This document shows, in pieces, positions 2,124 through 46,810 of a DNA stretch of 64,000 nucleotides. Within the stretch, counting starts at the first letter, position 1, and every line of letters starts with the position of its first letter. The notes below the pieces were generated by a model. That model saw only the letters and a list, made by a program, of their open reading frames with translations. It was not told the origin of the DNA and did not search any database. A program made the translations under genes and the position numbers. The DNA is from a virus, in the IMG/VR virus record IMGVR_UViG_3300033233_000009, positions 60,598 to 124,597 of that record; one strand, 5' to 3'.

Positions 2124-2515
2124 GCCCGACTGCTGCCGCTGAGGCCGCGGAGCTACGCGCCGCCGAGCTAGCGCTCGGGAACCTGCCCGAGCGAGCGCTC
2201 ACGCTGCTGTACCGCTCGCTCGTGCAGAACCGCCACCTGAGCCCGCTGGAGCACCCGGCCCGGCCGATGACCGAGTGGGAGCTGGACGCCTTCCGTCAGG
2301 TCGAGGCGGAGTTCTTCACGCCGGACGGCACGCGCACGCTGCGCGTTGCCCCGGCCTTCGTGGACGCGGTGAACGCCGGGAACGTCCCTGTGCGACTGAC
2401 GGGCACGCCTCGGGATGTCTACTACTGCGGAAATTACAACGGCTGGGTCCAGCTACGGAAGCTGATCCCCGGCGAAGCGGTGTACGTGGACACGGAAAGA
2501 AAGGATCGAACATGA
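2120..2515 (+). CDS. ThyX C-terminal fragment, translationally coupled to cas12
   Basis: This 131-aa reading frame matches only the C-terminal half of the full thymidylate synthase at 7920-9167. SPLEHPARPMT (from residue 41) corresponds to SPLEHVARPMT there, and GNYNGWVQLRKLIPGEA (from residue 104) corresponds to GNYDGWVQHRKLVPGEA. The N-terminal HR-x2-S-x-N flavin/nucleotide motif is absent, so it cannot be a complete enzyme. Its stop overlaps the cas12 start (ATGA), so the two are translated together. It may be a relic of a duplication or recombination event, or a small protein kept for another role. Confidence 0.75.
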   Translation: MSPTAAAEAAELRAAELALGNLPERALTLLYRSLVQNRHLSPLEHPARPMTEWELDAFRQVEAEFFTPDGTRTLRVAPAFVDAVNAGNVPVRLTGTPRDVYYCGNYNGWVQLRKLIPGEAVYVDTERKDRT

Positions 2516-4629
2516 AACGTCGAACGTCCCAAGCATTGGTCGGTATCTGGACTGGATTCGCACGGCCGCCCGTGGAGGGGGCCGCTCTGGTGCGGCGAGA
2601 GCTGGAGAAGGCGCACGACTACTACAACCAGATCGTGCAGTTGGAGCTGGACAGGCGGACCCTGTACCGCGCTGCGCGCGGGACGGTCGGGGAGACCCTC
2701 ACCGCCCTCCAGGCGGAGATGGACGCGCTGAACGAGAAGATCACGGCGGAGGTCGGCGGCCTGCGCGCAGTGCGCCAGGCGGCGCGGACGCGCGTCGAGG
2801 ATCCCGCGGCGAGTGCCAGGATCAAGGCGGTGAAGGAGGAGCGGCGGGCGCTCGCCGAGCGGCTCAAGGCGGCGCGCGCGGAGGCCGAGAAGGTCTACGG
2901 GCCGGGCAACGAGGAGCTGAGCCAGCGGAGCGCCCGTCTGGCGGAGGGGAACACGGCGTCGCGCATCCGGGAGAAGACGAACCGCGCGGCGCTGGAGGAA
3001 ATGCTCACGGAGCCGGAGTGGGCTGACGAGTGGAAGATGGTCGCGCGGATCAATCACGACGCGAACGAGGTGAAGAAGCAGATCCGGGCCGCCTGTGGCC
3101 TCACCCCCGGCACGTACCTGCTGGTCGAGAAAGCGGTCGAGGCTGCGTTCGCGCCGCCGCCGAAGGGGCGGCCGCCGCGGCCCGACCCGCGCCCGAAGGA
3201 GCGGTTCATCGGCGAGGGGCGCCTCGGTGTGCAGGTGCACCGGCTGCCGGTGGCAGACCTGCTGGCGGGTCGCAACGGGCAGATCGCCCTGCGCATGAGC
3301 GACCGGCTCCCGAACGGAGCGAAGGCGGCGCAGCGGTACGGCACGCTGCGCATGCGGGTCACCACCGACGGTCAGTACGCCGAGTTCCCGGTGAAGCTCC
3401 ACCGGCCACTGCCGCAGGACGGGTTCATCACGCAAATCTGGATCCGCGCAGAGCGGCAAGGACCGCGGACGCTGTATTCGCTCCAGTGCGTCGTGGAGTC
3501 GCCGCAGTGGGCGAAGCCTGGCCCGGTCGAGGGTGCCGGGACGATTGCCATTGACACCGGCTGGCGCGTCATGGATGGCGGCATCCGGGTGGCCTACTGG
3601 ATGGACGACCACGGGCGGCACGGGCAGCTCCTCGTCCCGGAGGGGGTGCGGAAGGCGATCGACTACGCCGACGTGCTGCGCGGCCGGGCGGACGATCACT
3701 TCAACGCCGCGTGCGCGGAGTTGCGCGCGTGGATGGTCGCCAACCCGGGGCACGTCCCGGCCTGGATGCAAGCCGCGACGGCGACGATGCCGTACTGGCG
3801 CGCGCACGGGAATCTCATCCGGGTGGCCCGGCGGCTGGGGGCCGACCACGGCCTGTGGAAGCAGTGGCGCATCGACCGGAAGGCGGCGGGGCTCGACCTG
3901 TTCGGCACGTTCGCGGAGGTGAGCGCGTGGCTCCAGCAGAGGCATGCCGCGACGACGGCCCCCGTCCACCCGCTCATGCAGATCGCCGTCTACCTGGAGT
4001 GGTGGCGGCGGAAGGACGCGCACCTCTACGACTGGGAGATCCGCGAGCGGCGCTACGCCGAGAACGCGCGGACCGAGATGTTCCGCAAGGTCTGCCAGGT
4101 CGCCCGGCAGTACGAGCACGTGCTGGTCGAGAAGATCGACCTGCCGAAGTTCGCCAAGAACGCCTCGGCCGAGGAGAAGGTGAACCGGGACTGGCTGCAC
4201 CGGGTGGCGCGCATCGCATCGCCCGGCGACCTCGCCGCACGGCTCATGGAGACGTGCAAGGGGCAGGCGGAGAAGATGGCGCCGCACAACAACACGCGCA
4301 CGTGCCACAAGTGCGGTCACGTGAACAATGCGTGGGAGCGGCAGGCGGATAGGGTCCAGACCTGCGCGGGGTGTGCGGCGAGCTGGGACCAGGACGAGAA
4401 CGCTTGCCGGGTGATGCTGGCGCTGTGGCACGGGCATGCGCCCGGTGGCGAGCGCGAGCGGTCGGGTGATGCACCGACCACGGCACCCGCTCGCAGCGCG
4501 GAAAACAAGCCCGCTCGCAGCGGGGAAGTGGCAGATCGGCAGCCCACGGGGTCTTCCGATCTGGGGCGCCCGAGGGACCGCTCGCAAGGCGGTCGCCAAG
4601 GGCCCGAAAGGATAGCAGGGCCCGGATGA
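2512..4629 (+). CDS. cas12: Compact Cas12 effector, Cas12m (C2c4, V-M)-like, 705 aa
   Basis: RNA-guided effector of a class 2 type V system. ATG at 2512 has AAAGGAT upstream and overlaps the ThyX fragment stop. The N-terminus (RPPVEGAALVRRELEKAH) recalls Cas12m/C2c4; residues 45-195 are a long helical, coiled-coil-like lobe. RuvC-I is IAIDTGWR with D348, RuvC-II is VLVEKID with E540, and RuvC-III is WDQDENAC with D628, so an acidic triad appears intact. Between II and III a zinc ribbon uses C598, C601, C618 and C621, as in TnpB and Cas12f. Residues 641-705 are a low-complexity Arg/Gly/Pro tail read from DNA that must also hold the array leader. Cas12m proteins are known mostly as DNA binders that silence rather than cut. 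The subtype is my recollection, not a search; a TnpB is unlikely because of the array and size. Confidence 0.88.
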   Translation: MKRRTSQALVGIWTGFARPPVEGAALVRRELEKAHDYYNQIVQLELDRRTLYRAARGTVGETLTALQAEMDALNEKITAEVGGLRAVRQAARTRVEDPAASARIKAVKEERRALAERLKAARAEAEKVYGPGNEELSQRSARLAEGNTASRIREKTNRAALEEMLTEPEWADEWKMVARINHDANEVKKQIRAACGLTPGTYLLVEKAVEAAFAPPPKGRPPRPDPRPKERFIGEGRLGVQVHRLPVADLLAGRNGQIALRMSDRLPNGAKAAQRYGTLRMRVTTDGQYAEFPVKLHRPLPQDGFITQIWIRAERQGPRTLYSLQCVVESPQWAKPGPVEGAGTIAIDTGWRVMDGGIRVAYWMDDHGRHGQLLVPEGVRKAIDYADVLRGRADDHFNAACAELRAWMVANPGHVPAWMQAATATMPYWRAHGNLIRVARRLGADHGLWKQWRIDRKAAGLDLFGTFAEVSAWLQQRHAATTAPVHPLMQIAVYLEWWRRKDAHLYDWEIRERRYAENARTEMFRKVCQVARQYEHVLVEKIDLPKFAKNASAEEKVNRDWLHRVARIASPGDLAARLMETCKGQAEKMAPHNNTRTCHKCGHVNNAWERQADRVQTCAGCAASWDQDENACRVMLALWHGHAPGGERERSGDAPTTAPARSAENKPARSGEVADRQPTGSSDLGRPRDRSQGGRQGPERIAGPG
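4592..4601 (+). repeat. Truncated repeat head upstream of the array
   Basis: GTCGCCAAGG, identical to the first 10 bases of the CRISPR repeat, lies inside the 3' end of cas12, 41 bp before the first full repeat. It could be a decayed leader-end repeat or part of the leader. The bases after it do not follow the repeat. Confidence 0.45.
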
Positions 4630-4632
4630 CGG

Positions 4633-6289
4633 GTCGCCAAGGCAGCGCGGGGCCTTCGACGCCGCGACCCGCGCGTCCGTCCATGCGTAGTGCGCGCCGC
4701 TGGGTCGCCAAGGCAGCGCGGGGCCTTCGACGCCGCGACCCGCTGCCGCTCGCCGGGGCCGGCTCGGAGGAGCTGCCGTCGCCAAGGCAGCGCGGGGCCT
4801 TCGACGCCGCGACGCGCGATCGACGTCCTTCCGCGCGGCCTCCACCTTGTCGCCAAGGCAGCGCGGGGCCTTCGACGCCGCGACTGTGCGCCCGTTAGTC
4901 TACTCCATGCGCCTCCGGCGGTCGCCAAGGCAGCGCGGGGCCTTCGACGCCGCGACTGGCGGCCCGCCTCCCTCCGGTGCGGTGCGCTCCGGGTCGCCAA
5001 GGCAGCGCGGGGCCTTCGACGCCGCGACAACGAGGCGCCGCCCGACGGCATCGACGACATCGCGGAGGAGGTCGCCAAGGCAGCGCGGGGCCTTCGACGC
5101 CGCGACTGGGGCAGGGAGCCGGATCGGGTGTATGCTTGGGCTTGGGTCGCCAAGGCAGCGCGGGGCCTTCGACGCCGCGACTGCTCTCTCTCTCTCCTTC
5201 TCTATTTTTCTCCTCTCTCTGTCGCCAAGGCAGCGCGGGGCCTTCGACGCCGCGACGCGTGCTCCGTGTCGGGGGACGGCTCCTCCGTTGCGTCAAGTCG
5301 CCAAGGCAGCGCGGGGCCTTCGACGCCGCGACGACAGGCGCTTCGGGAGCACATGATTCGCGAGCTGGGTCGCCAAGGCAGCGCGGGGCCTTCGACGCCG
5401 CGACAAGCCGGTTTGGTCCTCCCGGCTGGCGGCCCTGCTCGGGTCGCCAAGGCAGCGCGGGGCCTTCGACGCCGCGACCTTTCCTGTTGGTGCGACGGGC
5501 ACGGAGACCCGTCCAGTCGCCAAGGCAGCGCGGGGCCTTCGACGCCGCGACCTCCCGTGGACAGCCCCGTGTGCTTGGCAACTTCGAGGTCGCCAAGGCA
5601 GCGCGGGGCCTTCGACGCCGCGACTAGTCGCTCGGCTGCAGCAGCAAGTCGGAGAGGACGACGGTCGCCAAGGCAGCGCGGGGCCTTCGACGCCGCGACC
5701 TCGCAACATGCAGAGGGTCAGGGGACGCCCCTCGCCGAGGGTCGCCAAGGCAGCGCGGGGCCTTCGACGCCGCGACTATCCGCTCCGCCCGATCAGACGC
5801 TGCGCCCGTCGGAGTCGCCAAGGCAGCGCGGGGCCTTCGACGCCGCGACGAGATCCTCGGCGAGCAAGACCCGGTGGCCCCTCACCAGTCGCCAAGGCAG
5901 CGCGGGGCCTTCGACGCCGCGACCATCCCGCCCTGGAGTGAGTCCGACCTGCGCCACAAGGTCGCCAAGGCAGCGCGGGGCCTTCGACGCCGCGACGAGC
6001 ACGCCGTCGGTGAAGAGGCGGATTTCTACTTCGTCGCCAAGGCAGCGCGGGGCCTTCGACGCCGCGACCGAGGGTCCGAGTGGAGCTGGGGTCGCTGATG
6101 CCGGAGTCGCCAAGGCAGCGCGGGGCCTTCGACGCCGCGACCGGGGCTGGATACTGTGACAATCGCCCGGGCAGCAATGCATGTCGCCAAGGCAGCGCGG
6201 GGCCTTCGACGCCGCGACCCGTGCTTGCCGACGAGGATGCGGCGCGCGTCGGAGTCGCCAAGGCAGCGCGGGGCCTTCGACGCCGCGAC
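4633..6289 (+). CRISPR. CRISPR array: 23 identical 36-bp repeats, 22 spacers
   Basis: The repeat begins GTCGCCAAGG, contains CAGCGCGGGGCCTTC and ends GACGCCGCGAC. All 23 copies appear identical. The ends are inverted (GTCGC and GCGAC), and GCGG/CCGC near the 3' end can form the usual type V stem. Spacers are 35-42 bp, all different from one another. The array starts 4 bp after the cas12 stop and is read in the same direction, so no separate noncoding leader exists on that side; transcription probably comes through cas12 or from a promoter within its 3' end. No cas1 or cas2 is in the window, so spacer acquisition is absent or supplied in trans. Open frames across the array are artefacts of stop-free GC-rich repeats. 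Confidence 0.97.
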
Positions 6290-6313: not shown

Positions 6314-6342
6314 TTGACGCCGGTGCTGCCACCGGCTAAGGT
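6314..6342 (+). promoter_or_regulatory. Promoter with a dyad in its spacer, directly after the array
   Basis: TTGACG (6314-6319), 17-bp spacer, TAAGGT (6337-6342), then 6 bp to ATG 6349, so leaderless. The spacer is a perfect dyad CCGGTG-CTGC-CACCGG, a natural repressor site. A near-exact copy of this promoter lies on the minus strand at 45743-45771 in front of degenerate CRISPR repeats. Confidence 0.75.
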
Positions 6343-6348
6343 GCCGCC

Positions 6349-6558
6349 ATGTACCGTGACTTCGGGGAGAACATCCAATTCCCGCGTGGCGTCGCCGCAG
6401 AGGTCGAGAACCGGGCCGACGACGCGATCGTGCGCCTGTGCTTCACGACCCTGGAGCAAGGGGAGGCATGCGTGCAGACGCTGCGTGAGGCCGCCGACCG
6501 GATGGAGAAGGAGCTGACGCTGTGGCGGAAGGCCCAGAGCGAGGGGAAGTGGCTGTGA
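6349..6558 (+). CDS. Small helical protein, 69 aa
   Basis: First gene after the array, with its ATG 6 bp beyond the -10 of its own promoter. The second half (LEQGEACVQTLREAADRMEKELTLW, split by charge heptads) should form a coiled coil. No family is recognised. Its stop overlaps the next gene start (GTGA), so it heads an operon of small membrane proteins. Confidence 0.6.
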   Translation: MYRDFGENIQFPRGVAAEVENRADDAIVRLCFTTLEQGEACVQTLREAADRMEKELTLWRKAQSEGKWL

Positions 6559-10924: not shown

Positions 10925-10960
10925 CAACCCAAGGCAGCGCGGGGCCTACGACGCCGCGAC
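10925..10960 (+). repeat. Solo CRISPR repeat outside the array
   Basis: Matches the 36-bp repeat at 31 of 36 positions. Mismatches are the first four bases and one T-to-A change in the middle (CCTACGACGCC instead of CCTTCGACGCC). The 3' GCCGCGAC end and hairpin are kept. The same T-to-A change occurs in two minus-strand repeats at 45.6 kb. It sits in the 93-bp gap after the DUF3310 gene, on the transcribed strand. Confidence 0.85.
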
Positions 10961-11400: not shown

Positions 11401-12717
11401 ATGAGCGAACCGCGACCGGAACAGCCGACCATCCCAGCCGAGGACTACTTCGGCCCGGGGGACGCCGCGACGTACGACTACGGTGTCCTGTACCAGGCGG
11501 AGTGGGAGACGCCGTGGGACGCGACGGCCATCGCTGCGCGCCTGCACGCGCGGGCGCTGGCGGCGCAGGGGGTCCCGGTGCTGCTCAAGTCGTTCTCGGG
11601 CATCATCGTGAACGACGCGGGGATCCCCGAGCCCGTGTTCGCGCCGGGGGGCCTGCCGGACGTGGTGAAGGCCGAGGTCGGCACGCTGCCCGACACGTCG
11701 ATCCGTACGCTGGCCGTCTTGCTCCGGCACATGGTGGTGCACGGCCAGGGCACGCTGGAAAACCATCTGATGCCGCGCCAGGTGGTGGCCTCCGACCCGG
11801 AGCTGCTGCTGGCCCTGCGGCGCGCGGTGTACGACTCGACGATCACCTACACGGTCTGGGAACGGGACCGCGTGGCACCCGGCATTGCGGCGCAGCTTGC
11901 CCGGTGCGGGCAGGCGTGGGTCCCCTGCCACCAGAACGCGGCGATGCTGATCCGGTCGGGCGTGCCGGCGGAGAAGGTCCACGTCGTGCCGCACCCGTAC
12001 GAGCCGAGCGACCCGATCTGTCGGCTGGTCGAGCGGCGGCCGTTCGCGGAGCGCCGCTTCTACACCATCGGGCGCTGGGAGCCGCGCAAGGGCCTGCATG
12101 AGCTGGTCGGCGCGTTCCTGGAAGCGTTCCGGCCGGGCGACGACGTCCGGCTCACGATCAAGACCAGTCCGGGCACGTGGAGGGGGTACCCGACGCCCGA
12201 GGAGAGCCTCGCCGAGTGGCTCAAGCGGTACGACTACTGGCGGAACCCGGAGACGATGGCGGCGCACCTCACGGTGGACACGCGGCGGTACCCGCGGAGC
12301 AAGATCCTGAAACTGCACTTCGACCACAACCTGTACGTCTCCGCGTCGCATGGAGAAGCGTGGGCCCTGGGGGCATTCGAGGCGAAGCTCGCGGGCAATC
12401 GCGTGGTGCACGTGCCGTATGGCGGCACGGCGGACTTCTGCGAGCCGGAGGACGTGCCGGTGGCCTACGGTATGGAGAAGGTGCACCCGAGCTACGGCTG
12501 GGAGCCCGACGCCGAGTGGGCGAGCGTCACGAGTGAGGCGCTCGTGCGCGCGCTGCGCAAGGCGACGCCGCCTGTCGCGTTCGCGCGGCCGGCGCACTAC
12601 GAGCGCGTGTTCGGCTTTCCGGCCGTCGGGCGGCAGATGGCCGACTTGATCCTCAAGCGGCTTGACGGAGTGGACCCAAAGGCGGCCGCGTGGCTGCGGG
12701 AGCGGGTGAAGACATGA
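11401..12717 (+). CDS. GT4-family glycosyltransferase, 438 aa
   Basis: Transfers a sugar from a nucleotide-sugar to an unknown acceptor. The fold is GT-B: an N-terminal acceptor domain, then VPHPYEPSD, GRWEPRKGLHEL (start of the second Rossmann domain) and the retaining-GT EX7E motif at E319 to E327 (EAWALGAFE). Phage GT4 enzymes modify host surface sugars or phage proteins or DNA. A second GT4 follows at 13827 and an FkbM-type methyltransferase at 18229, so these may act on the same glycan. Start ATG 11401 lies 8 bp after the previous stop. Confidence 0.85.
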   Translation: MSEPRPEQPTIPAEDYFGPGDAATYDYGVLYQAEWETPWDATAIAARLHARALAAQGVPVLLKSFSGIIVNDAGIPEPVFAPGGLPDVVKAEVGTLPDTSIRTLAVLLRHMVVHGQGTLENHLMPRQVVASDPELLLALRRAVYDSTITYTVWERDRVAPGIAAQLARCGQAWVPCHQNAAMLIRSGVPAEKVHVVPHPYEPSDPICRLVERRPFAERRFYTIGRWEPRKGLHELVGAFLEAFRPGDDVRLTIKTSPGTWRGYPTPEESLAEWLKRYDYWRNPETMAAHLTVDTRRYPRSKILKLHFDHNLYVSASHGEAWALGAFEAKLAGNRVVHVPYGGTADFCEPEDVPVAYGMEKVHPSYGWEPDAEWASVTSEALVRALRKATPPVAFARPAHYERVFGFPAVGRQMADLILKRLDGVDPKAAAWLRERVKT

Positions 12718-12977
12718 AGATCGCGAGCGAGCAGGACGAGTCAAAGAAGGATGCACTGCTCCTGGCGGTGCACGCCGTGAGCACGCAGGCATACGGGGAC
12801 CTCGTGCTGCGGCTGGGCCTGGAGCCCGAGGATGCTGTTGGCCTGATCGGGATGGCGATGTTCGAGGAAGCGGCGGCGATGACGCAATCCCATCGGCTGT
12901 CGCGGGAAGAGTTCCTGACGGCAGCGGGTCTGTGCTGGGACGCAGTGGCCGCGGTGCGCGAGAAGGGGGCAGCGTGA
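12714..12977 (+). CDS. Unknown helical protein, 87 aa
   Basis: ATG at 12714 overlaps the glycosyltransferase stop (ATGA). The protein appears all-helical with no Cys or membrane segment, rich in Ala, Glu and Met (GLIGMAMFEEAAAMTQ). Probably expressed with the glycosyltransferase. No family recognised. Confidence 0.6.
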   Translation: MKIASEQDESKKDALLLAVHAVSTQAYGDLVLRLGLEPEDAVGLIGMAMFEEAAAMTQSHRLSREEFLTAAGLCWDAVAAVREKGAA

Positions 12978-13555
12978 GCACCGGACGACCCAGCGACGAT
13001 GCCTCCACCGAGGAGTGGCAGCTCTATGTACTTCACCGGGTGGCGCCGCTCATCGCGGAGCGCGATGTAGAGTTTCAGGGGGCGCTGCCGCTGTTTACGG
13101 CGCTGGCCGCACAGATGGACGTCGAGACCGCGCGGTTCGCGCCCGTCGTGAGGGAGATGCTGGCTCTCGCGCAGGCTGCGGCAGTGAGTGTCGAGGGCCT
13201 GCTCGACACCCTGAAGGCGGCGTTCGCTCCCGACCCGATGCCCTGGCCACTGTGGCTCGGGCGTCCGCGTCAGGCGGAGGGCGGCGACGGCAGCGAGGCG
13301 TACTTTGCGCCGCCCGCGTGGGAGGCTCACTGCGAGCGGGTCTACCTGCGAGAGTGGGAGCGACGCCGTCTGGAGGCGCAGGGCCTGGACTTCGCGACGA
13401 TCGAGCGGGCGAAGAATCGCGGGACGGCTGACGAGCGCGCGATCATGGCGCAGGCGGGGCTCGGGAGCCTCGGCGGTGGCGTGGTCGTGGTGGTGGAGCG
13501 AGCGCCGCAGGGCGAGGGGGCTACGGACGATCCGGCGGAGCGGACGGGGCCATGA
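12974..13555 (+). CDS. Unknown 193-aa protein
   Basis: GTG at 12974 overlaps the previous stop. Helical N-terminal 90 residues, then a Trp/Pro-rich segment (PMPWPLWLGRPRQ), an Arg/Glu helix, and a short hydrophobic stretch GGGVVVVVE near the end. No recognisable domain; belongs to the same overlapping chain. Confidence 0.55.
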   Translation: MSTGRPSDDASTEEWQLYVLHRVAPLIAERDVEFQGALPLFTALAAQMDVETARFAPVVREMLALAQAAAVSVEGLLDTLKAAFAPDPMPWPLWLGRPRQAEGGDGSEAYFAPPAWEAHCERVYLREWERRRLEAQGLDFATIERAKNRGTADERAIMAQAGLGSLGGGVVVVVERAPQGEGATDDPAERTGP

Positions 13556-13830
13556 CGAGGCTGACCCGAGAGGAAGCGATCCAGAAGATGCGCGAGGGGC
13601 AGACCGTGCGCCACGTGACCTGGGCACACGGTGCCGTCATCTTCATGGAGGACGCTGCCGGTCGAGATCCGTGGCTGGTGCGGCGTGAGCGGCTCTCCGA
13701 CGCTTTGAAAAGCACGCCCAACGGGGGCAACGGGCTCAACTGGGAGGTGGTGCTCAAGCCCTGTGAGCCGGAGGAGGAGCCCCGGTGTGGCGCCATCCCG
13801 GCAGCGGTGGCGACGAAGGCGGGGTCGTGA
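13552..13830 (+). CDS. Small protein, possibly DUF2829-like, 92 aa
   Basis: ATG at 13552 overlaps the previous stop. LTREEAIQKMREGQTVRHVTW followed by a predicted strand and a later LNWEVV is the layout of small beta-rich phage proteins such as DUF2829. The match is loose, so this is a suggestion only. Confidence 0.45.
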   Translation: MTRLTREEAIQKMREGQTVRHVTWAHGAVIFMEDAAGRDPWLVRRERLSDALKSTPNGGNGLNWEVVLKPCEPEEEPRCGAIPAAVATKAGS

Positions 13831-14948
13831 CGCCCACGGTCCGCCTCTACGGCCGCGTGCTCGGCTACGGATCGCACGCGCAGGTCACGGATGGATTTGC
13901 CGGCGTGCTGCGCGACGCGGACCTGCTCGCCGGCATCGTCGCGTTCGATCGCGACCTGCCGCCCGACTCGCCCCAGCCCGGCGGCGCGCTCGCGCCGCAT
14001 GCCGTATTCACCGGGCCACTCGGCCACCTGCGCGCCATGCGGAGCGGTGCGCGCCACCGGGCACGGTACGCGATGCTGGCACCGAACAGCTCGGCGGTGC
14101 CCCCGCTCCTGCTCCGGGCGCTGGAGAGCGAGTGCACGGAAATCCTCGTGCCGTCGGAGTGGGCGCAGGAAGTCGTCGAGGAGCTGACAAGCATTCCGGT
14201 GCGCGTCGTGCCGCACGGCATTGCCCCGGGGTTCGTTCGGAGCCCGTCCCTGCGCGAGGTGGCCGCGGAGGCGTATCGACGTGGCGCCTTCAACGTGCTG
14301 CACCTGTCGTCGAGTGACCGGGAGCGCAAGGGCACGCACGCCTTGCTGGAGGCGTGGGGGATGCTGATGGCGAAGGGGGAGCTGCCCGCGGAAGCGAAGC
14401 TCCGCCTGGTGCTCGACGTGGAGGCGCTCTCGAAGACCGTGGCGTGGATGGCGGAGCGTGCGGGGCCAGGTATGCGCCTCGATTCCGTCACGGTGACGGC
14501 ACGGCTGGAGGCGCGTCCGACAGCGCTCGCGCAGGTCTACGGCGTGCAGCACGTCGTGTGCCAGCCCTCACGTGGGGAGGGCTTCGGCTGCTGCCCCCTC
14601 GAAGGGCTCGCGTGCGGGGTGCCGATCGTGGCCACGGCCTGCACGGGGCATTCGCAGTGGTTCCGCCCTCTCAGTCTTCAGCCCAGCCTCCCGGGCGCCG
14701 TGCGGGTCGAGCATGGCCCGGACGCGCGAATCGACGACCTGCCGGGGGCCATGGCGCCGACGGTCGAGCCCGACGCCGTTGCGGTGGCGCTGCGGCGCGC
14801 GTACGCGGAGTGGGAGGCGCTCGACGCCGCGGCTGCATCCGGGGCCGCGGCCCTGCGCGAGACCTGGGCGTGGGGCAGACAGATCGCGCCCTTCGTGGAG
14901 TATCTGCGTCAATCGGACGCCAACCAGCAGGAGACGACGACCCCATGA
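13827..14948 (+). CDS. Second GT4-family glycosyltransferase, 373 aa
   Basis: GTG at 13827 overlaps the previous stop. GT-B fold: VVPHGIAPGF ends the N-terminal domain, LHLSSSDRERKGTHAL starts the nucleotide-sugar domain, and PSRGEGFGCCPLEGLACG carries EX7E at E251 and E259. It differs enough from the enzyme at 11401 to suggest another substrate. Located in one operon with the first glycosyltransferase. Confidence 0.85.
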   Translation: MTPTVRLYGRVLGYGSHAQVTDGFAGVLRDADLLAGIVAFDRDLPPDSPQPGGALAPHAVFTGPLGHLRAMRSGARHRARYAMLAPNSSAVPPLLLRALESECTEILVPSEWAQEVVEELTSIPVRVVPHGIAPGFVRSPSLREVAAEAYRRGAFNVLHLSSSDRERKGTHALLEAWGMLMAKGELPAEAKLRLVLDVEALSKTVAWMAERAGPGMRLDSVTVTARLEARPTALAQVYGVQHVVCQPSRGEGFGCCPLEGLACGVPIVATACTGHSQWFRPLSLQPSLPGAVRVEHGPDARIDDLPGAMAPTVEPDAVAVALRRAYAEWEALDAAAASGAAALRETWAWGRQIAPFVEYLRQSDANQQETTTP

Positions 14949-19313: not shown

Positions 19314-20251
19314 CAACCTTTACCCTGAACATCGTTTCTCTGTGCGTGGTGCTCGCCGGCTGTGGCGGCGACTCGTTTGGCGGCGCTGCTGCCAGTGACG
19401 GCGGCGTGGGCGAGGCGGACGGCGCCCGTGTCACGGCGGACGCGGTCGGTGCGGGCGGCGGGACGCAGGCCCGCGAGGGCGGTGCCGGGGGGCCGGGGGC
19501 GGGCGGACACGCCGGTACCGGTACGGGGGGCGAGGCAGCGGACGGCGGCACGGTCACCCCGGGAGCAGGCGGGGCGACAACGGAGGGCGGCTTCGGTACG
19601 GGCGGAGCGGCGCCGGGGGCCGGCGGGACCGTCCCGGGTGCGGGTGGGATGACGGCCGAGGACGGCCCCGGGGCAGGCGGAGCGGCGCCGGGAGCCGGCG
19701 GAGCCAGCCAGGGCGCAGGCGGAGCGGCGCCGGAGGCCGGCCCCGGCTGCAAGCCCCCGGTGGTGGACGAGACGAACCTGCCGCCCACGGTGGTCTGGGA
19801 GTCGTACCTCACGAAATACGGGACGTACTGCCTGACGTGCCAGCACAGCCCGTGCACGATCTGCCCGCTCACGTGGTGGCCGGTCACGCAGAGTGCGGAC
19901 GGGCTGACCGTCACGGCGACGATCAACAAGGGCGTCTGCGACCCCCTGCCGCTGAACATGGGCCTCTGCACCAGCGACCTGACTGCTGGAAGCTGTACGA
20001 CGCTGAATCCCAGCGTCGAGGCGACGTTTGTGCTCCGCCTGGAGCCGAAGCCGGACGGTACGGGCTACCGCGTGGCGGACGCCAGCGGCGAGCAGGCCCG
20101 CGTCACCCGTCTGTACGGTTCGTGTACCGGGGGCACCATCCAGGGCGCCACGACGTTCGACAACGCCTGGGCGGCCTACCCCGCCGATCGGAGTCTGCTC
20201 GCGGCGACGCGTGCCACGATGCTGGCAGCCGAGTGGCCCTGTGGGCGATAG
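19310..20251 (+). CDS. Secreted lipoprotein with long Gly/Ala-rich linker, 313 aa
   Basis: ATG at 19310 overlaps the previous stop. The N-terminus (FTLNIVSLCVVLAGCGG) ends in a lipobox LAGC with Cys18; the usual basic n-region is missing, which is odd. Residues 19-145 are a Gly/Ala-rich linker with repeated GAGG and GTGG, a design very common in myxobacterial outer-membrane lipoproteins. The C-terminal 165 residues form a Cys-rich domain (YCLTCQHSPCTICP and later pairs). In a phage such a protein may act at the host surface, for example in superinfection exclusion, but this is inference. It is the clearest host-type signature in the window. Confidence 0.8.
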   Translation: MTTFTLNIVSLCVVLAGCGGDSFGGAAASDGGVGEADGARVTADAVGAGGGTQAREGGAGGPGAGGHAGTGTGGEAADGGTVTPGAGGATTEGGFGTGGAAPGAGGTVPGAGGMTAEDGPGAGGAAPGAGGASQGAGGAAPEAGPGCKPPVVDETNLPPTVVWESYLTKYGTYCLTCQHSPCTICPLTWWPVTQSADGLTVTATINKGVCDPLPLNMGLCTSDLTAGSCTTLNPSVEATFVLRLEPKPDGTGYRVADASGEQARVTRLYGSCTGGTIQGATTFDNAWAAYPADRSLLAATRATMLAAEWPCGR

Positions 20252-20290
20252 GGCACGATTTCTGCTGTCCTGGGCCTGACCGCCGTTTTC

Positions 20291-20318
20291 TTGACGGCAC
20301 GGCTCGGCGAGCGATAGC
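20291..20318 (+). promoter_or_regulatory. Promoter, leaderless type
   Basis: TTGACG (20291-20296), 16-bp spacer and GATAGC (20313-20318); ATG 20327 follows 8 bp later. Confidence 0.65.
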
Positions 20319-20326
20319 CTCCCCAC

Positions 20327-20761
20327 ATGGCGTTCGTTCTCGGTGACGTGGTGTCCATGACCCTGTTCGCGCAGGAGAACCTGTCCGGGCTGCTCGGACC
20401 GCTCGTGCAGGCGCAGCCCCCGAAGTTCGGCATCGTGCAGGCCCTCGGCATGGGGGCCACGGTGGACGTGCTGTGGGAGGACGGTCGCGTCGTGACCGCG
20501 GTGCCCAACACCGCGCTCGACAAGATCGGCGCTCCCGACTCGGGCGTCGTCGCGAGCTTCCAGGGCTTCGTGCTCAAGACCGACCCCGGCGTCGCGGCGC
20601 AGGCGGAGAGCCCGGAGTACCAGGGCGTGGATGTCACGTTCTACACGCGCGACAACGCCGCTGCCGGTACGCCGACCGACACGCTGTGCCTCATGCTGAC
20701 GAACGCCGGGCTCTACCGCGAGCTGCTGGCCTCGACGCTGAAGGTGGTCGGAGGACGGTGA
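20327..20761 (+). CDS. Unknown 144-aa protein
   Basis: ATG at 20327 directly follows its promoter. GATVDVLWEDGRVVTAVPN and the flanking strands look like a small beta barrel; no catalytic motif is seen. Its stop overlaps the next gene. Unknown. Confidence 0.6.
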   Translation: MAFVLGDVVSMTLFAQENLSGLLGPLVQAQPPKFGIVQALGMGATVDVLWEDGRVVTAVPNTALDKIGAPDSGVVASFQGFVLKTDPGVAAQAESPEYQGVDVTFYTRDNAAAGTPTDTLCLMLTNAGLYRELLASTLKVVGGR

Positions 20762-21156
20762 GCGAGGCGGTCGCCAGCGCGCAGCCGGACCCGAGCGCGC
20801 TCCGCGCTCCGCTTGCCGCGTGTCTGGCCGGGCTGCGGGCGGCAATCGAGCACGCCCGCGCCGCCGCCGATGCGTGGAGCGCCGGGGGCGACCCGCACGG
20901 GCCGCTGGACGCTGCGGACGGTGCCGTGCGCCGTGCCCGTGCGCAGACGGTGGCGCTGCGCTCGGTGCTCCCGGGCCACTCGCGCCGGGTGCGCCTGGCC
21001 GACCGGGCAGTGGAGCGCGCGGGCGAGCTGGTTGCCGTCGTCCGCGGGCTGCCACCGGCGGACTCGACCGATGTCGAGGAGACCCTCCTGATCGTGGTCG
21101 AGCGCGCCTTCGGTGCAGCCGAGAGGGCGGTACGGGCGGCGGACGGCGGCGCCTGA
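20758..21156 (+). CDS. Helical protein, 132 aa
   Basis: GTG at 20758 overlaps the previous stop. Almost entirely Ala/Arg-rich helices (RAAIEHARAAADAW, AERAVRAADGGA), likely coiled coil or helical bundle. No family recognised. Confidence 0.55.
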   Translation: MSEAVASAQPDPSALRAPLAACLAGLRAAIEHARAAADAWSAGGDPHGPLDAADGAVRRARAQTVALRSVLPGHSRRVRLADRAVERAGELVAVVRGLPPADSTDVEETLLIVVERAFGAAERAVRAADGGA

Positions 21157-21161
21157 TCGCC

Positions 21162-21344
21162 GTGTCACGGGTGACGCAGCGTTGCGTCACTGCTGCCACT
21201 GGCAGCACCCTGGCACGGGACCGGACCTGCCGCACCGACGGCGAGGCCATCTGGTCCTACGCCCTCCTGATCGCCGTGCGGGCCGGCTCCATCGTCTACG
21301 TGCTCGACCTGGCCGAGTCGCCCAGCCGACGCCCTGCCCCGTAG
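21162..21344 (+). CDS. Possible small protein over a dyad-rich region, 60 aa
   Basis: The middle (TDGEAIWSYALLIAVR) resembles small phage proteins that contain a TDG-xAI-xSYA segment. The N-terminal third is read across two perfect DNA dyads, so the real start may lie downstream. Uncertain. Confidence 0.4.
   Translation: MSRVTQRCVTAATGSTLARDRTCRTDGEAIWSYALLIAVRAGSIVYVLDLAESPSRRPAP
21171..21207. promoter_or_regulatory. Two adjacent perfect dyads
   Basis: GTGACGCA-GCGT-TGCGTCAC (21171-21190) is followed without a gap by TGCTGCC-ACT-GGCAGCA (21191-21207). The first belongs to the CGTCAC-type dyads near the GGCAC-N5-GTGC elements; the second is the best copy of the GCTGCC-N3-GGCAGC operator. 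Confidence 0.65.
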
Positions 21345-21363
21345 CGGTGTCTCCCTGGCCGGC

Positions 21364-21450
21364 ATGTGGCAGGCGGGCCACGGGGACGAGGACGACGACC
21401 GCGGCTTCCCCGTCCGCGGCGACCGGGAGGACTTCCACGCGGACGGGTGA
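21364..21450 (+). CDS. Possible 28-aa acidic peptide
   Basis: ATG 21364 to TGA 21448-21450 encodes a peptide with GDEDDDRGF and GDREDFHADG. Its charge and codon use look coding, and acidic micro-proteins are common in phages, but length prevents certainty. Confidence 0.35.
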   Translation: MWQAGHGDEDDDRGFPVRGDREDFHADG

Positions 21451-21451
21451 G

Positions 21452-21506
21452 GCGTCACACGTGACGCTACGTGACGGCCGGGTTACGCCCGGCCGTTCGC
21501 GTTTTG
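21452..21506 (+). terminator. Rho-independent-type terminator after a CGTCAC dyad
   Basis: GCGTCAC-AC-GTGACGC (21452-21467) precedes a 9-bp stem ACGGCCGGG / CCCGGCCGT with a TTACG loop (21474-21496), followed by TCGCGTTTTG. The stem and T run suit a terminator that insulates the next promoter. The tract between 21157 and 21580 otherwise holds two doubtful micro-ORFs. Confidence 0.6.
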
Positions 21507-21531
21507 TGGGCTTCGGGGCTTGATCTTGCGC

Positions 21532-21546
21532 GCTGCCGGTGGCAGC
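21532..21546. promoter_or_regulatory. GCTGCC-GGT-GGCAGC dyad operator
   Basis: Perfect 6-3-6 dyad lying 7 bp upstream of a GGCAC-N5-GTGC promoter-like element (21553). One of at least seven copies of this operator in the window. Confidence 0.55.
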
Positions 21547-21552
21547 ATGGGC

Positions 21553-21568
21553 TGGCACGACGGGTGCA
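21553..21568 (+). promoter_or_regulatory. Candidate sigma-54 promoter (GG-N10-GC)
   Basis: TGGCACGACGGGTGCA has GG and GC separated by 10 bp, as in the -24/-12 consensus TGGCACG-N4-TTGC. ATG 21581 lies exactly 27 bp after the first G; a second in-frame ATG at 21614 has an AGGAG RBS. Confidence 0.5.
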
Positions 21569-21613
21569 AGGCAGGTAGGCATGACCAGTAAGCCGGCCAC
21601 CAGGAGAGACCAG

Positions 21614-22474
21614 ATGACCACCGCCACGACGACCCCGATCCAGGACGCTCTCGCTCTGCTCCCCGAGTCCGCCGACGACTGCCCGTGTGTGGAGGCAGCC
21701 CTGGCCGCCTACGAGGCCGCGGCCCCGGGCTCACCGGAGGAGACCGGTGCGGACCTCGCCCATGATGCGCTCCGCGCGGAGGTGCAGGCCGGCCTCGACG
21801 CCTGGCGCGCCTATGGCATCGACCTACTCACCGGCTCGGACGAGCCCCGTGAGTGGCAGCTCGACGAGGACGAGGGCCGCGGGTATGACACCTGCGTCGC
21901 CTCCTCAGCCGCCGAGGCGCTCGCCGTCGCCCGCGGCAACGTTGACCGCGACAACTACACGACGGACCCGGACGCCGGCACCATCTACGTCGATTACGGC
22001 GTCCGCTGCGTGCTCACCGGCGAGCACGACGAGGACGGAGCCACGCTCGCCCCGGAGGAGCCCTACTGCGACTCTGAGGCGGGCTCCCACGAGTGGGTGA
22101 CGCCCGTCTGGCTCGTCGGTGGCATCGGCGAGAACCCCGGATGCTGGGGCCACGGTGGGGGCGTCATCTGCGCCGAGGTCTGCCGGCACTGCGGGTGTCG
22201 GCGGACGACCGACACATGGGCTCAGCGCCGCGACACCGGGGAGCAGGGCCTCACCGAGGTGAGCTACGACGCGGATCACTACCTCGATTCCATCGCCGAG
22301 CACGCCGAGCGCATCGCCACGCGGCTCCGCCGGGACATCGGCGAGGACACGTTCGCCTCGCCCGAGGCTCTCCGGGAGTACGTGGAATCCTGCTCCACGC
22401 GAGCGACGGAGATGCCCGTGCTCTGCGCCCAGGTGGTCGGGCTCCTCGCCGATCTGATCTCGGAGGCAGCGTGA
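21614..22474 (+). CDS. Unknown acidic 286-aa protein with zinc-ribbon centre
   Basis: ATG 21614 is chosen because AGGAGAG lies 8 bp upstream; ATG 21581 in the same frame would add 11 residues and be leaderless. The protein is strongly acidic, has CPCVEAALAAYE near the start, and a Cys/His cluster CAEVCRHCGCRR near residue 195 that should bind zinc. The end is helical. This layout resembles DUF-type proteins abundant in actinophages and myxophages, without known function. Confidence 0.6.
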   Translation: MTTATTTPIQDALALLPESADDCPCVEAALAAYEAAAPGSPEETGADLAHDALRAEVQAGLDAWRAYGIDLLTGSDEPREWQLDEDEGRGYDTCVASSAAEALAVARGNVDRDNYTTDPDAGTIYVDYGVRCVLTGEHDEDGATLAPEEPYCDSEAGSHEWVTPVWLVGGIGENPGCWGHGGGVICAEVCRHCGCRRTTDTWAQRRDTGEQGLTEVSYDADHYLDSIAEHAERIATRLRRDIGEDTFASPEALREYVESCSTRATEMPVLCAQVVGLLADLISEAA

Positions 22475-22798
22475 TCCGCCTCGCCTCCCTCACCCCCGAC
22501 GCCGTGGCTCGCGAGGTGGAGCTGACGGTGAGCGGCGGCGAGGTCACTGGCGGAGTTCATCGCGACGCTGACCGGGCTCGCCGTGCCGGCCCTCGGGGAC
22601 CTGGCACGCGGCGCCGTGGTCGGAGCGATCACGATCACGGACTGTGTGCAGAAGTCCGAGTCTCGGTGGTTCTTCGGGCCGTACGGATTCGCGCTGGCGA
22701 ACCCCGTGGCGTTGTCCACCTCGGTCCCGTGTCCGGGCAGGCTCGGGTTCTTCGATGTGCCAGCGGACGTGGCCGAGCAACTGCGGAGGGCAGCGTGA
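22471..22798 (+). pseudogene. ASCH-like domain fragment with frame switch
   Basis: From about 22540 to 22798 one frame encodes a clear ASCH-type C-terminal half (ARGAVVGAITITDCVQKSE, then WFFGPYGFALANPVAL and GRLGFFDVPADV). ASCH proteins bind RNA or modified nucleotides. In that frame two stops lie at 22523-22531 and only GTG 22583 is available as start, giving 71 aa. The coupled GTG 22471 opens a different frame. The normal N-terminal half of the domain is missing in both, so the gene is truncated and probably frameshifted. Confidence 0.55.
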
Positions 22799-23097
22799 AC
22801 GGTGTCAGAGACGCCATTGTGGCTCGTCCCACTGGTATGCAGCCAATGCAGTCAACCGCCTACCGCATCGTACGACTCTTTCGCGGGCACGTCAGGCCGG
22901 ACGGCTGGGGCGGCCCCTACGGCGAAACCGTGCGCGACGACGTGTCTCTCGCGGAGGCGCAGGCGCACTGCTCCGGCCCGGAATCGAGCAGCGAGACGTG
23001 CACGAGCGCGGCCGGCAAGCGGCTGACACAAGAGCGTGGGCCCTGGTTCGACTCGTACCTGGGGCCCGAGGACGAGGACGACTCGTTTCTGGACTGA
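22795..23097 (+). CDS. Unknown 100-aa protein
   Basis: GTG at 22795 overlaps the previous stop. STAYRIVRLFRGHVRPDGWGGPYGETVRDDVSLAEAQAHC is alpha/beta, and the C-terminus (GPWFDSYLGPEDEDDSFLD) is acidic. It matches a recurring small phage protein type (strand, YG-ET, then helix AQ-HC), of unknown function. Confidence 0.6.
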   Translation: MNGVRDAIVARPTGMQPMQSTAYRIVRLFRGHVRPDGWGGPYGETVRDDVSLAEAQAHCSGPESSSETCTSAAGKRLTQERGPWFDSYLGPEDEDDSFLD

Positions 23098-23111
23098 GAG
23101 GCAGCAACCGC

Positions 23112-23333
23112 ATGGACAAGGACCGAACCGAGTACGTGGTGGTCTGCCGCGGCGACGCCGATCCGGGCTCGCCCTACGTCTACGGCGCGTACGAGCTTGC
23201 GACGCGCACGGTGTTTCCGACGCGCGAGGCGGCGCTGGCGTACAGCGTCGGGATCGCGGCGGAGCGTGCGCCACTGGTCGTCGCCGGGCGCTGGAGTGGT
23301 CTGCGCCGGGATGCGGCGGAGCGCTTTCCGTGA
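23112..23333 (+). CDS. Unknown 73-aa protein
   Basis: ATG at 23112. Short alpha/beta sequence (TEYVVVCRGDADPGSPYVYG, then REAALAYSVGIAAERAP). The stop overlaps the next start. No family recognised. Confidence 0.55.
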   Translation: MDKDRTEYVVVCRGDADPGSPYVYGAYELATRTVFPTREAALAYSVGIAAERAPLVVAGRWSGLRRDAAERFP

Positions 23334-23632
23334 GCGTCACCGGTTGGAAGCGGCGCCTGGCGAAGCGTGGGCTGGCGCTGAGCCTGCGGCCCGGCAACCG
23401 CGACTGCTGGATCGCCTACGTGACGGCGCCGGACGCGCCCGTGGACCAGCGCTTCTCGCCGCTCGTCGGGGTCGGCTGGGCAGATAGCTACGACGAAGCG
23501 ATCGACGCGGCGGTCCGCGCCTTCGATGCGAAGCGTGAGGACCAGCAGCATGAGCGGGTGGTGCTCGCCCTGGCCGAGCCGGAGACGGCGCGAGCTAGGA
23601 GGAACAGAGCCAATGCCGGGCAGCCCGCGTAA
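23330..23632 (+). CDS. Unknown 100-aa protein
   Basis: GTG at 23330 overlaps the previous stop. Basic N-terminus (WKRRLAKRGLALSL), aromatic middle and a charged C-terminal helix. Unknown. Confidence 0.5.
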   Translation: MSVTGWKRRLAKRGLALSLRPGNRDCWIAYVTAPDAPVDQRFSPLVGVGWADSYDEAIDAAVRAFDAKREDQQHERVVLALAEPETARARRNRANAGQPA

Positions 23633-43967: not shown

Positions 43968-44176
43968 AGCTCCTGAACTGCCGCCAGTGCGACGACGTGA
44001 TCAAGATCGTGGACAAGGCCCGCTCCTGCGAGTGCGGCCGCTGCACGGGTATGCTCGACGCCGTTGGCGGCACACTGCTGGTCACCGGCCCGGCGCGTGT
44101 GTTCGAGATACCATGGCCCGAGTACGACCAGGCGGCGGGCGGTGAGTGGCAGCGGTGGCGGATGGTGCCGCGATGA
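43964..44176 (+). CDS. Small zinc-binding protein, 70 aa
   Basis: ATG at 43964 overlaps the previous stop. NCRQCDDVIKIVDKARSCECGRCTG gives CxxC and CxCxxC, a tight zinc site; the rest is beta-rich. Recurrent small phage protein type; unknown role. Confidence 0.6.
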   Translation: MKLLNCRQCDDVIKIVDKARSCECGRCTGMLDAVGGTLLVTGPARVFEIPWPEYDQAAGGEWQRWRMVPR

Positions 44177-44418
44177 GCACGGTGGGCCCGGAGTACGCCA
44201 CGACGCACCGTCTGGTCGCGCTGGAGCAGAGGGTCGGGCCCCAGCCGGTCCCGGTGCCCCCGGGTCCCCACGGGTGGCGGCTCTGTGCGGCCACCGCGGT
44301 GATGTGGGTCGTGGACGAGGCCCAGAACAGCCACCAAGTGCTCTACACGTGGTTCTGGAGGCGCGCCGGCCGGGAACGTGTCGCCGGAGCGCTCGGGGGC
44401 GACGGAGATCCCCAATGA
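44173..44418 (+). CDS. Unknown 81-aa protein
   Basis: ATG at 44173 overlaps the previous stop. Pro-rich middle (QPVPVPPGPHGW) and Trp-rich helix (VLYTWFWRRAG). Unknown. Confidence 0.5.
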   Translation: MSTVGPEYATTHRLVALEQRVGPQPVPVPPGPHGWRLCAATAVMWVVDEAQNSHQVLYTWFWRRAGRERVAGALGGDGDPQ

Positions 44419-45106: not shown

Positions 45107-45589
45107 ATGCTCCAGGCCACACGCATCGCATCTCGCATGTACCAGGGGCCCTGCCCCCCATCGACCGATGCCGTGCGGGGACACCGGTTCACCGTGCTCG
45201 TGTTCTGCGCGCGCGAGATTCAGCCGTACCTGCCGGACCACCTGCTCCGCGGGCTCGACGTGCTGTACGTGCCGCTGAACGACAGCTTCAACGAGCCGAT
45301 GACCGACGCCGAGTGGGACCTCGCGCACGGCGCGGGCAGGGAGGTGGCCCGACTCACTGCGCTCGGTGGGCGCTCGCTAGTGACGTGCGCGGCGGGCCTG
45401 AACCGCTCGGGCATCGTGAACGCCATCGCGCTCCACTACCGCTTCGGCTGCTCGGGCGCCGGGGCCATCGCTCAAATCCGCGCGACGCGCGGACCGCAGG
45501 CGCTGAGCAATCCGAGCTTCGAGCGCCGCCTGGTCAAGCTCGGTTCACGACGGCGCAGACCCCATGCCGCCGCGGGGCCGGCGTCGTAG
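45107..45589 (+). CDS. Dual-specificity phosphatase-like protein, 160 aa
   Basis: Cys-based phosphatase fold. The P-loop is VTCAAGLNRSG with C94 and R100 (CX5R), preceded by VLYVPLNDSFNEPM where the general acid Asp lies. Substrate could be protein or RNA 5' phosphate. Its TAG stop is inside the degenerate CRISPR repeat at 45575-45610. Confidence 0.8.
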   Translation: MLQATRIASRMYQGPCPPSTDAVRGHRFTVLVFCAREIQPYLPDHLLRGLDVLYVPLNDSFNEPMTDAEWDLAHGAGREVARLTALGGRSLVTCAAGLNRSGIVNAIALHYRFGCSGAGAIAQIRATRGPQALSNPSFERRLVKLGSRRRRPHAAAGPAS

Positions 45590-45610
45590 GCCCCGCGCTG
45601 CCTTGGTGCT
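45575..45610 (-). repeat. Degenerate CRISPR repeat 3 of the antisense mini-array
   Basis: Read on the minus strand it keeps CCAAGGCAGCGCGGGGCCT and ACGACGCC; the last bases diverge. Carries the T-to-A variant of the solo repeat. Only 14 bp separate it from repeat 2, so no full spacer. Confidence 0.75.
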
Positions 45611-45624
45611 CTCGACAAGACGAC

Positions 45625-45660
45625 GTCGCGGTGTCGTAGGCCCCGCGCTGCCTTGGGAAT
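45625..45660 (-). repeat. Degenerate CRISPR repeat 2 of the antisense mini-array
   Basis: Minus strand: CCCAAGGCAGCGCGGGGCCT then ACGACACCGCGAC, about 30 of 36 positions matching. The 3' CGCGAC end is intact, so a processed crRNA-like 3' part is conceivable. Confidence 0.82.
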
Positions 45661-45696
45661 GGGGACCGGCATGGGGCCGTCAAGCCTGTACTGCTC

Positions 45697-45732
45697 GCCG
45701 TGACGTTGGAGGCCCCACGTTGCCTTGCAGGC
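45697..45732 (-). repeat. Degenerate CRISPR repeat 1 of the antisense mini-array
   Basis: Minus strand: GCAAGGCAACGTGGGGCCT then CCAACGTCACGGC. More decayed than repeats 2 and 3. The distance to repeat 2 is 72 bp, the same period as the main array (71-78 bp), leaving a 36-bp spacer-like interval. Confidence 0.65.
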
Positions 45733-45742
45733 ACATGGCGGC

Positions 45743-45771
45743 ACCTTAGCCGGTGGCAGCACCGGCGTCCA
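45743..45771 (-). promoter_or_regulatory. Promoter copy driving the antisense mini-array
   Basis: Minus strand: TGGACG, the same 17-bp dyad spacer CCGGTG-CTGC-CACCGG plus C, TAAGGT, GCCGCC, ATG. Thirty-seven bases are identical to the promoter at 6314-6342 and its start codon. The ATG opens only an 18-codon frame, so an RNA product is more likely than a protein. Confidence 0.75.
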
Positions 45772-45790: not shown

Positions 45791-46810
45791 TCAGAACGGG
45801 ACCTCGTCGTCGGCCAGCTCTTGCTCCCCGTGCGCTTCCGTCGCCCGCAGCGAGGCTTCCCGGGCCGCCTCGCTCTCCTGCGCCTGGCGCCACTCGGCCT
45901 CACTCTGCTCCAGCCGCTCCGACAAGATCGCGGTCACCTCCTCGGGGTGTTCCTCGACCCATTGCAGGAACGTCTCGGTGCGGCTCCGCTTCGGGGACGC
46001 GGTGATCCCTCGCTTCACCGCCTTCCACACGGGAAGCAGCTCGGGATCGATGTCGCTCTCGACCGTGGAGTCCGATTCCGAGGCGGCTTCGCTCCGCCGG
46101 ATTCCGCGGAGCGCGCTACTGGCCTTCCGCCCGGTATGAGTCTGAAGGGCGGTGAGGTCGCGGGTAAGTTCAATCTCGGCGCGCAGCCGCTGCTCTCTCT
46201 CCTCGATGGGATCCACTGCCCGGTGGCGGCGCGCGTCGTAGAACGCATCGACCTCGGCTCGAAGCTGCCGCGCCCGCTCCTCACCGACCACCTGGCAGCG
46301 GTCACCTCGCACCAGCGTCGTCGGCTCGATGATGGTGCGGGCGCGCGCCGCCTTCGTGAACGGGGCGAGCTGCTTCCCCACCGCTCGCTTGTCGGCCTCC
46401 AGATCCGCGATCTGCTCACGCAGCCGGCTGATCTTCTGCTGGGCGGTTCGGCGCACGCCGCTCGCGTACATGCGTTCGGCCTCCAGTTGCCGCGCGCTCT
46501 TGTTCGGCTGTAGCTCACCGAGCCCCAGGTCGAGCCACGCCTCGGTGATCTGCCGGTCGTCGCGCCACTCCTCGGGGTGGTGGCCCATGCGGCGGAGCAG
46601 GCCCTTCTTCTCCATGGCCCGCACCGTGTGCACGGTCGTGTACCACCGCGGCAGCCGATACGGCTCGTGCCCGATGTCCTTCTGCCACCGCCACTCGATC
46701 CCCGGCGTCGTCCAGAAGCCGCCAGGCCAGCGCTCCAGCACGCCGTCGGAACCCGGCTCGGTCAGCTTCTCGATGACCTCAAGCTGGGCGAGGGATGGGC
46801 CGGACGCCAT
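45791..46810 (-). CDS. Helical protein ending in an SSB-like acidic tip, 339 aa
   Basis: ATG 46810 overlaps the stop of the GHKL ATPase gene, so the two form an operon. Residues 1-90 look like a winged-helix region (LPRWYTTVHTVRAMEKKGLLRR); residues 110-200 are a coiled coil (TAQQKISRLREQIADLEADK). The last residues, GEQELADDEVPF, copy the C-terminal tip of single-stranded DNA binding proteins (consensus DDDIPF) that recruits repair and replication partners. No OB-fold is evident, so this is not an ordinary SSB. Confidence 0.65.
   Translation of the reverse strand: MASGPSLAQLEVIEKLTEPGSDGVLERWPGGFWTTPGIEWRWQKDIGHEPYRLPRWYTTVHTVRAMEKKGLLRRMGHHPEEWRDDRQITEAWLDLGLGELQPNKSARQLEAERMYASGVRRTAQQKISRLREQIADLEADKRAVGKQLAPFTKAARARTIIEPTTLVRGDRCQVVGEERARQLRAEVDAFYDARRHRAVDPIEEREQRLRAEIELTRDLTALQTHTGRKASSALRGIRRSEAASESDSTVESDIDPELLPVWKAVKRGITASPKRSRTETFLQWVEEHPEEVTAILSERLEQSEAEWRQAQESEAAREASLRATEAHGEQELADDEVPF

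Follow-up and report, generated by a model that had tools for sequence, protein, structure and literature searches.

TldR proteins are nuclease-dead TnpB RNA-guided repressors that work with a single guide RNA located beside their own gene. The Cas12m effectors of type V-M process their own pre-crRNA without a tracrRNA and silence via binding, and the members with a D-E-D triad characterised so far bind dsDNA without cleavage (PMC11013384). The crRNA scaffold of Cas12m2 consists of a pseudoknot plus a stem with a disordered 5' end, and its guide forms a duplex of 17 bp (PMC10442227). Degenerate repeats at ectopic sites have been described in CreTA modules (PMC9458426, PMC8501985), and solitary repeats of phages in Racrs (PMC10651486); phage V-M systems as well as viral orphan arrays have already been listed (PMC12607003, PMC11656645). 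The literature searched gives no account of phage V-M systems whose guide units are dispersed, or compact and covarying; the novelty of such units is provisional.

The window analysed here is a stretch of 64,000 nucleotides, which corresponds to positions 60598-124597 of a phage contig with a length of 124,597 bases (IMGVR_UViG_3300033233_000009). It contains a cas12m gene with its array and, elsewhere, a small group of degenerate repeats that is probably an ectopic V-M mini-array giving guide RNAs for the phage's own Cas12m.

The phage effector and its main array

The effector gene and the main array are located at the following positions:

2512-4629, plus strand: effector Cas12m, 705 aa, with the RuvC residues D348, E540 and D628 (from alignment)
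4633-6289, plus strand: main CRISPR array with 23 identical repeats (from repeat search)

The product of 2512-4629 matches Cas12u1 in PADLOC (E 4.8e-71) and Cas12m chains in the PDB (E down to 7.5e-37). By its sequence, this effector is a Cas12m of type V-M (formerly V-U1; Cas12u1 is the old name). The RuvC triad D-E-D is retained, and the CRISPR system of the phage should silence DNA, not cut it. The main-array repeat is the 36-nt sequence GTCGCCAAGGCAGCGCGGGGCCTTCGACGCCGCGAC. The spacers of this array gave no convincing match against phage and plasmid records. The spacer A05 (window 4957-4992) displays a perfect 36-base match to position 54153 of its own contig (L011 14153), within a predicted gene. 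The adaptation gene cas1 is absent from the seven searched contigs of such Cas12m phages.

Degenerate repeats outside the main array

The repeats found outside the array, their guides and the neighbouring genes are given below:

45107-45589, plus strand: left convergent gene, dual-specificity-phosphatase-like (phrog_10650, E 6e-11)
45569-45610, minus strand: degenerate repeat R3 in its 42-nt form, CCTACGAC variant (29/36 over 45610-45575)
45607-45624, minus strand: guide 2, GTCGTCTTGTCGAGAGCA, the 18 nt preceding the R3 core, in a compact 50-nt unit
45625-45660, minus strand: degenerate repeat R2, CCTACGAC variant (31/36 versus the main repeat)
45661-45696, minus strand: guide 1, GAGCAGTACAGGCTTGACGGCC..., 36 nt between R1 and R2, placed by its position after the scaffold end
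45697-45732, minus strand: degenerate repeat R1 (26/36 versus the main repeat)
45791-46810, minus strand: right convergent gene, 339 aa, with normal codon-position GC
10925-10960, plus strand: solo degenerate repeat, CCTACGAC variant (31/36 versus the main repeat)

The first-pass annotation had described three degenerate minus-strand repeats between two convergent genes, the first two holding the 72-bp period of the array. Both observations are confirmed over 45732-45575, with scores above those of shuffled sequences. In the 36-nt comparison, unrelated positions reach at most 23/36; over the 32-nt core, R1, R2, R3 and the solo repeat score 24, 30, 28 and 31, respectively, against a shuffled-genome maximum of 22/32. 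The spacing is 72 between R1 and R2 and 50 between R2 and R3, the latter period being absent from the earlier description. R3, which is probably the terminal repeat of the mini-array, overlaps the final codons of the left gene. Codon-position GC makes the minus-strand frame 45791-46810 the likelier gene on the right; it lies immediately upstream of the mini-array, on the same strand.

The solo repeat is intergenic, a few bases past a same-strand stop codon, and is followed by the guide AAGGTCCAATCCACCCAG...; the start of guide 1 is also given as GAGCAGTACAGGCTTGAC.... As in CreTA/CreR-type loci, degenerate repeats stand outside the array in the same orientation with a guide after each. The proposal that off-array repeats form a variant class of their own applies to R2, R3 and the solo (CCTACGAC), but R1 carries CCTCCAAC. 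The first four repeat bases are missing from all off-array copies (R1, R2, R3 and solo).

A putative promoter copy upstream of the mini-array

A putative promoter directly precedes R1, and its counterpart follows the main array:

6314-6351, plus strand: post-array promoter, either the source of the mini-array copy or its sister (from sequence comparison)
45734-45771, minus strand: copy of the post-array promoter, TGGACG-17-TAAGGT-GCCGCC-ATG (37/38 versus 6314-6351)

The two copies, 39 kb apart, share 37 contiguous identical bases through ATGT, exactly as had been claimed, and their sole mismatch falls in the -35 box (TGGACG versus TTGACG). The ATG behind the mini-array copy opens merely an 18-codon frame, which agrees with the earlier view that no real ORF follows. 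A third copy (32/38) is found before an ATG at 52944-52907 on the minus strand. With TTGACN or NTGACA, N16-19 and TANNNT as the pattern, six promoter-like sites of this genome stand 3-12 bases before a start codon, versus 0-2 in shuffles. A strict sigma-70 scan did not score the mini-array copy; its repeated use before start codons suggests that it would function as a promoter. The copy that was first proposed as a dedicated promoter belongs to a small family of such sites in the phage, and it has a weakened -35 box. A palindrome, CCGGTG-CTGC-CACCGG, lies between the -35 and -10 boxes at 6314-6342, 45743-45771 and 52944 (minus strand) and could be an operator.

The arrangement of a promoter and then repeats is similar to that of the phage solitary repeats which act as Racr anti-CRISPRs against type I-F (PMC10651486). 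Here, such a decoy RNA would mimic the repeats and jam a V-M system of the host, a reading that we hold to be very improbable. The RNA would load the phage's own effector too, since its repeats match the array of this phage, and a scaffold-plus-guide unit exceeds what a decoy needs. Furthermore, solitary repeat units are described as having no cas gene association (PMC10651486), and a Racr is a repeat without cas genes that mimics a host system, whereas Cas12m and its array are in the same contig here.

A tracrRNA or anti-repeat function, considered because the locus lies antisense to the main array, was rejected: an RNA starting at the promoter would contain the repeats in sense orientation, and type V-M works without a tracrRNA.

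Scaffold structure and unit length

A topology search recovered the Cas12m2-type pseudoknot in every main V-M repeat tested. The H-type pseudoknot is kept in R1, R2 and the solo repeat, and in R3 only given a 6-nt insertion, the pairing of R3 appearing solely in its 42-nt form. Despite 8 core differences, 9/10 scaffold pairs are intact in R1, including a compensated C-G to U-A change in the second stem. This retention has a P of ~0.06 versus random placement of the same substitutions, and is no more than suggestive. The four lost repeat bases fall within the disordered segment of the Cas12m2 structure. The R2 unit is composed of the 32-nt core and 18 nt, the length of a mature guide RNA; as a scaffold with an 18-nt guide, the 50-nt R2-R3 unit fits the 17-bp R-loop of Cas12m2.

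The main rival for the mini-array is the decay of a relocated fragment: an older array fragment and the neighbouring promoter would have been copied by recombination and would now drift without function. The differences of R1 (10/36), the broken stem of R3, the mutated -35 box and the running of R3 into a gene end are all compatible with such debris, as are the older-looking variant common to R2, R3 and the solo, and the covariation across the four off-array copies of this genome, which is not above shuffles. However, R2 and the solo repeat are nearly intact, R1 retains its scaffold pairs, and the promoter is oriented into the repeats at the mini-array but lies downstream of them at the main array. 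We consider this decay rather unlikely, also in view of the units found in other phages.

Dispersed units in other Cas12m phages

No close relative was found in IMG/VR, either by repeat core or by promoter. The alignment of Cas12m brought in 18 phage loci, and those of their proteins that were aligned are 25-33% identical to the effector of the window. In the genome G002 (3300024054_000269, 36% GC), cas12m is followed by a 3-repeat main array, and a degenerate mini-array of 5 units with a 46-50-nt period is located ~3 kb off, on the opposite strand and between convergent genes. This is the layout of the mini-array described above, in an unrelated genome. In the scaffolds of G002 (main repeats included), 98.6% of cells are paired versus 87.2% in shuffles, and 6/10 pairs are changed on both sides (slid controls 10-53%). 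The genome G005 (3300024243_000005) has 28 compact units, mostly of 45-51 nt, behind cas12m (L039 11789-13117). All 28/28 scaffolds are distinct, and 96.8% of cells are paired versus 84.2% in shuffles, with 45 double-change cells versus 13.6 in shuffles (slid controls 33-48%). Two near-duplicate guide pairs (YCAGRCTTCTCTCCTA and CGCCAYCATGARCAT) occur in G005, as if directed against variants of one target.

Whole-contig scans detected off-array units distant from cas12m in G003, G006, G008 and G011, whereas none were detected in G001, G010, G013 and G015, and G014 gave one weak match. Dispersed units are therefore frequent, but not universal, among phage V-M loci. They take the form of solos, pairs and arrays spread genome-wide; G006 has them at about ten places besides its main array, on both strands. 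Among the distant off-array clusters of five genomes, 13/16 are intergenic versus 2.1 expected, and many sit shortly after a same-strand gene. Covariation in the off-array units of G006, G008, G011 and G001 is not clearly above shuffles. In two phages, comparable units are under strong structural selection; this and the intergenic placement in five argue against debris, and scattered guide units look like a recurrent design of phage V-M systems.

Several other loci were observed. G006 (IMGVR_UViG_3300032770_000005) has two cas12m genes in one phage. In G016, a spacer of the array C1 at 18303 has a perfect 30/30 match to its own cas12m (target 11495, L090), as an autoregulatory or accidental guide would look. 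In G001, a spacer of C1 (~44159-44194, L014) reads in reverse complement as a repeat with a foreign guide, as if directed at a related CRISPR array. In two Polyangiaceae contigs (L110 ~2200-2330; L111 ~11490-11560), only one scaffold stands behind a cas12m-like gene, in a single-guide arrangement; the guides start similarly in both contigs (ACTGACGATRTYKTTTT) and have no clear target. Finally, KX853510.1 (Virus Rctr197k, L112) contains a V-M effector annotated as transposase adjoining a CRISPR array (locus 19932-23348); next to another transposase-like gene it has a second array, whose repeat is different (12975-14870).

Guide targets

Guides 1, 2 and solo match nothing in their own contig above chance, and against the region around the cas12m start they perform no better than shuffled guides. 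In exact searches of IMG/VR, guide 1 has one 18-mer match, guide 2 has five 17-mer matches with no common flank, and the solo guide has none; these matches are at about the chance level, given a rough estimate of the size of the collection. In two Polyangiaceae assemblies, the solo guide has nothing but many weak matches, and the 28 guides of G005 have no target in the G005 genome. Because the guides match no own or IMG/VR sequence beyond chance, the target would be external, in the host or in a rival element.

These results bear on a CreR-/CreA-like self-regulation, in which guides partly matching the phage's own cas12m promoter or a linked toxin would repress it. In cellular type I systems, degenerate repeats at ectopic sites act in this way (PMC9458426, PMC8501985), and self matches exist in the spacer of G016 against its own cas12m and in A05 at contig position 54153. 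The three guides of the window have no such self target, although a short seed-only match could escape the search, and the mini-array is 39 kb from cas12m. Self-regulation appears improbable, and autoregulation of cas12m by the mini-array is not supported.

Proposed function of the mini-array

The guide-unit reading is preferred because Cas12m and a matching array share the contig, because the Cas12m2-type pseudoknot is found in the main repeats, R1, R2 and the solo, because the same layout occurs in G002, with covarying units in G005 and G002 and intergenic clusters elsewhere, and because Cas12m self-processes pre-crRNA and silences by binding (PMC11013384). The weak pairing evidence in this genome, the absence of a normal stem in R3 and the mutated -35 box count against it, as do the phage V-M loci that lack such units and the failure to find, in IMG/VR, a close relative with conserved guides. 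On balance, the mini-locus most likely yields RNA for the phage's own effector, and with the solo repeat at 10925 this genome would have two or more dispersed guide loci.

The first-pass annotation had proposed an RNA product that binds the effector. The scaffold kept in R1, R2 and the solo, and the recurrence of similar units in other Cas12m phages, speak for an RNA that would serve the effector, but the product would consist of ordinary guide units (scaffold and guide) and not of a special non-guide RNA. The whole mini-array transcript has no special fold, its predicted folding being no stronger than that of shuffled sequences (z -0.3), and an Rfam search gave only a weak spurious match.

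In the following scheme for the mini-array, all steps from transcription through processing and loading to silencing are inferred, as is the external target. The phage promoter, or read-through from the gene 45791-46810, would drive synthesis of an RNA that contains two or three of the degenerate repeats and that Cas12m would cut upstream of each pseudoknot, retaining scaffold and guide. The complexes would bind matching DNA outside the phage genome, in the host or a competing element, and block transcription of the target without cutting.

A broader scheme is conceivable, but doubtful. Phage Cas12m would be a general RNA-guided silencing system with dispersed, structure-conserved guide units, many in gene 3' UTRs and some exactly a scaffold with a ~17-nt guide. 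These would be released from phage mRNAs in step with their carrier genes, and would reprogramme host or rival transcription during infection.

Expression of the dispersed units would mean that V-M phages have a programmable means of silencing transcription, coupled to the expression of their own genes, and that these genomes already contain the minimal natural V-M guide (a scaffold of ~30 nt and a 17-18-nt guide).

Comparison with known systems

The system of the window resembles type V-M in the sequence of its effector, in the pseudoknot of its scaffold, in the ends of its repeats, in having an array next to the effector gene and in that no Cas1 was found. Contrary to the described V-M loci, where one array adjoins cas12m, its degenerate repeats are found up to 39 kb away, and one repeat group is antisense behind its own putative promoter.

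With CreTA/CreA, the mini-array has in common a few degenerate repeats outside the array that are predicted to guide the resident effector, and a first repeat that is more diverged, as R1 is. CreTA, which belongs to type I, is associated with cas genes as well as a toxin and has a self target, whereas no self target or toxin was seen for the mini-array. As in Racrs, solitary repeat units and viral mini-arrays, phage repeats stand outside an array behind a promoter; however, Racrs and viral mini-arrays mimic or use the host CRISPR, while the phage of the window encodes the matching effector and array. Ectopic degenerate repeats have so far been mainly cellular and of type I, for regulation or toxin guarding, or phage decoys; here, phages owning a cleavage-deficient effector keep scattered extra guide units, which in two cases are compact and strongly covarying. 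In comparison with TldR, the likeness is a protein of TnpB/Cas12 type that is cleavage-deficient and has a natural guide which is fixed, and the difference is that TldR has a single guide RNA whereas this phage has multiple CRISPR-type units.
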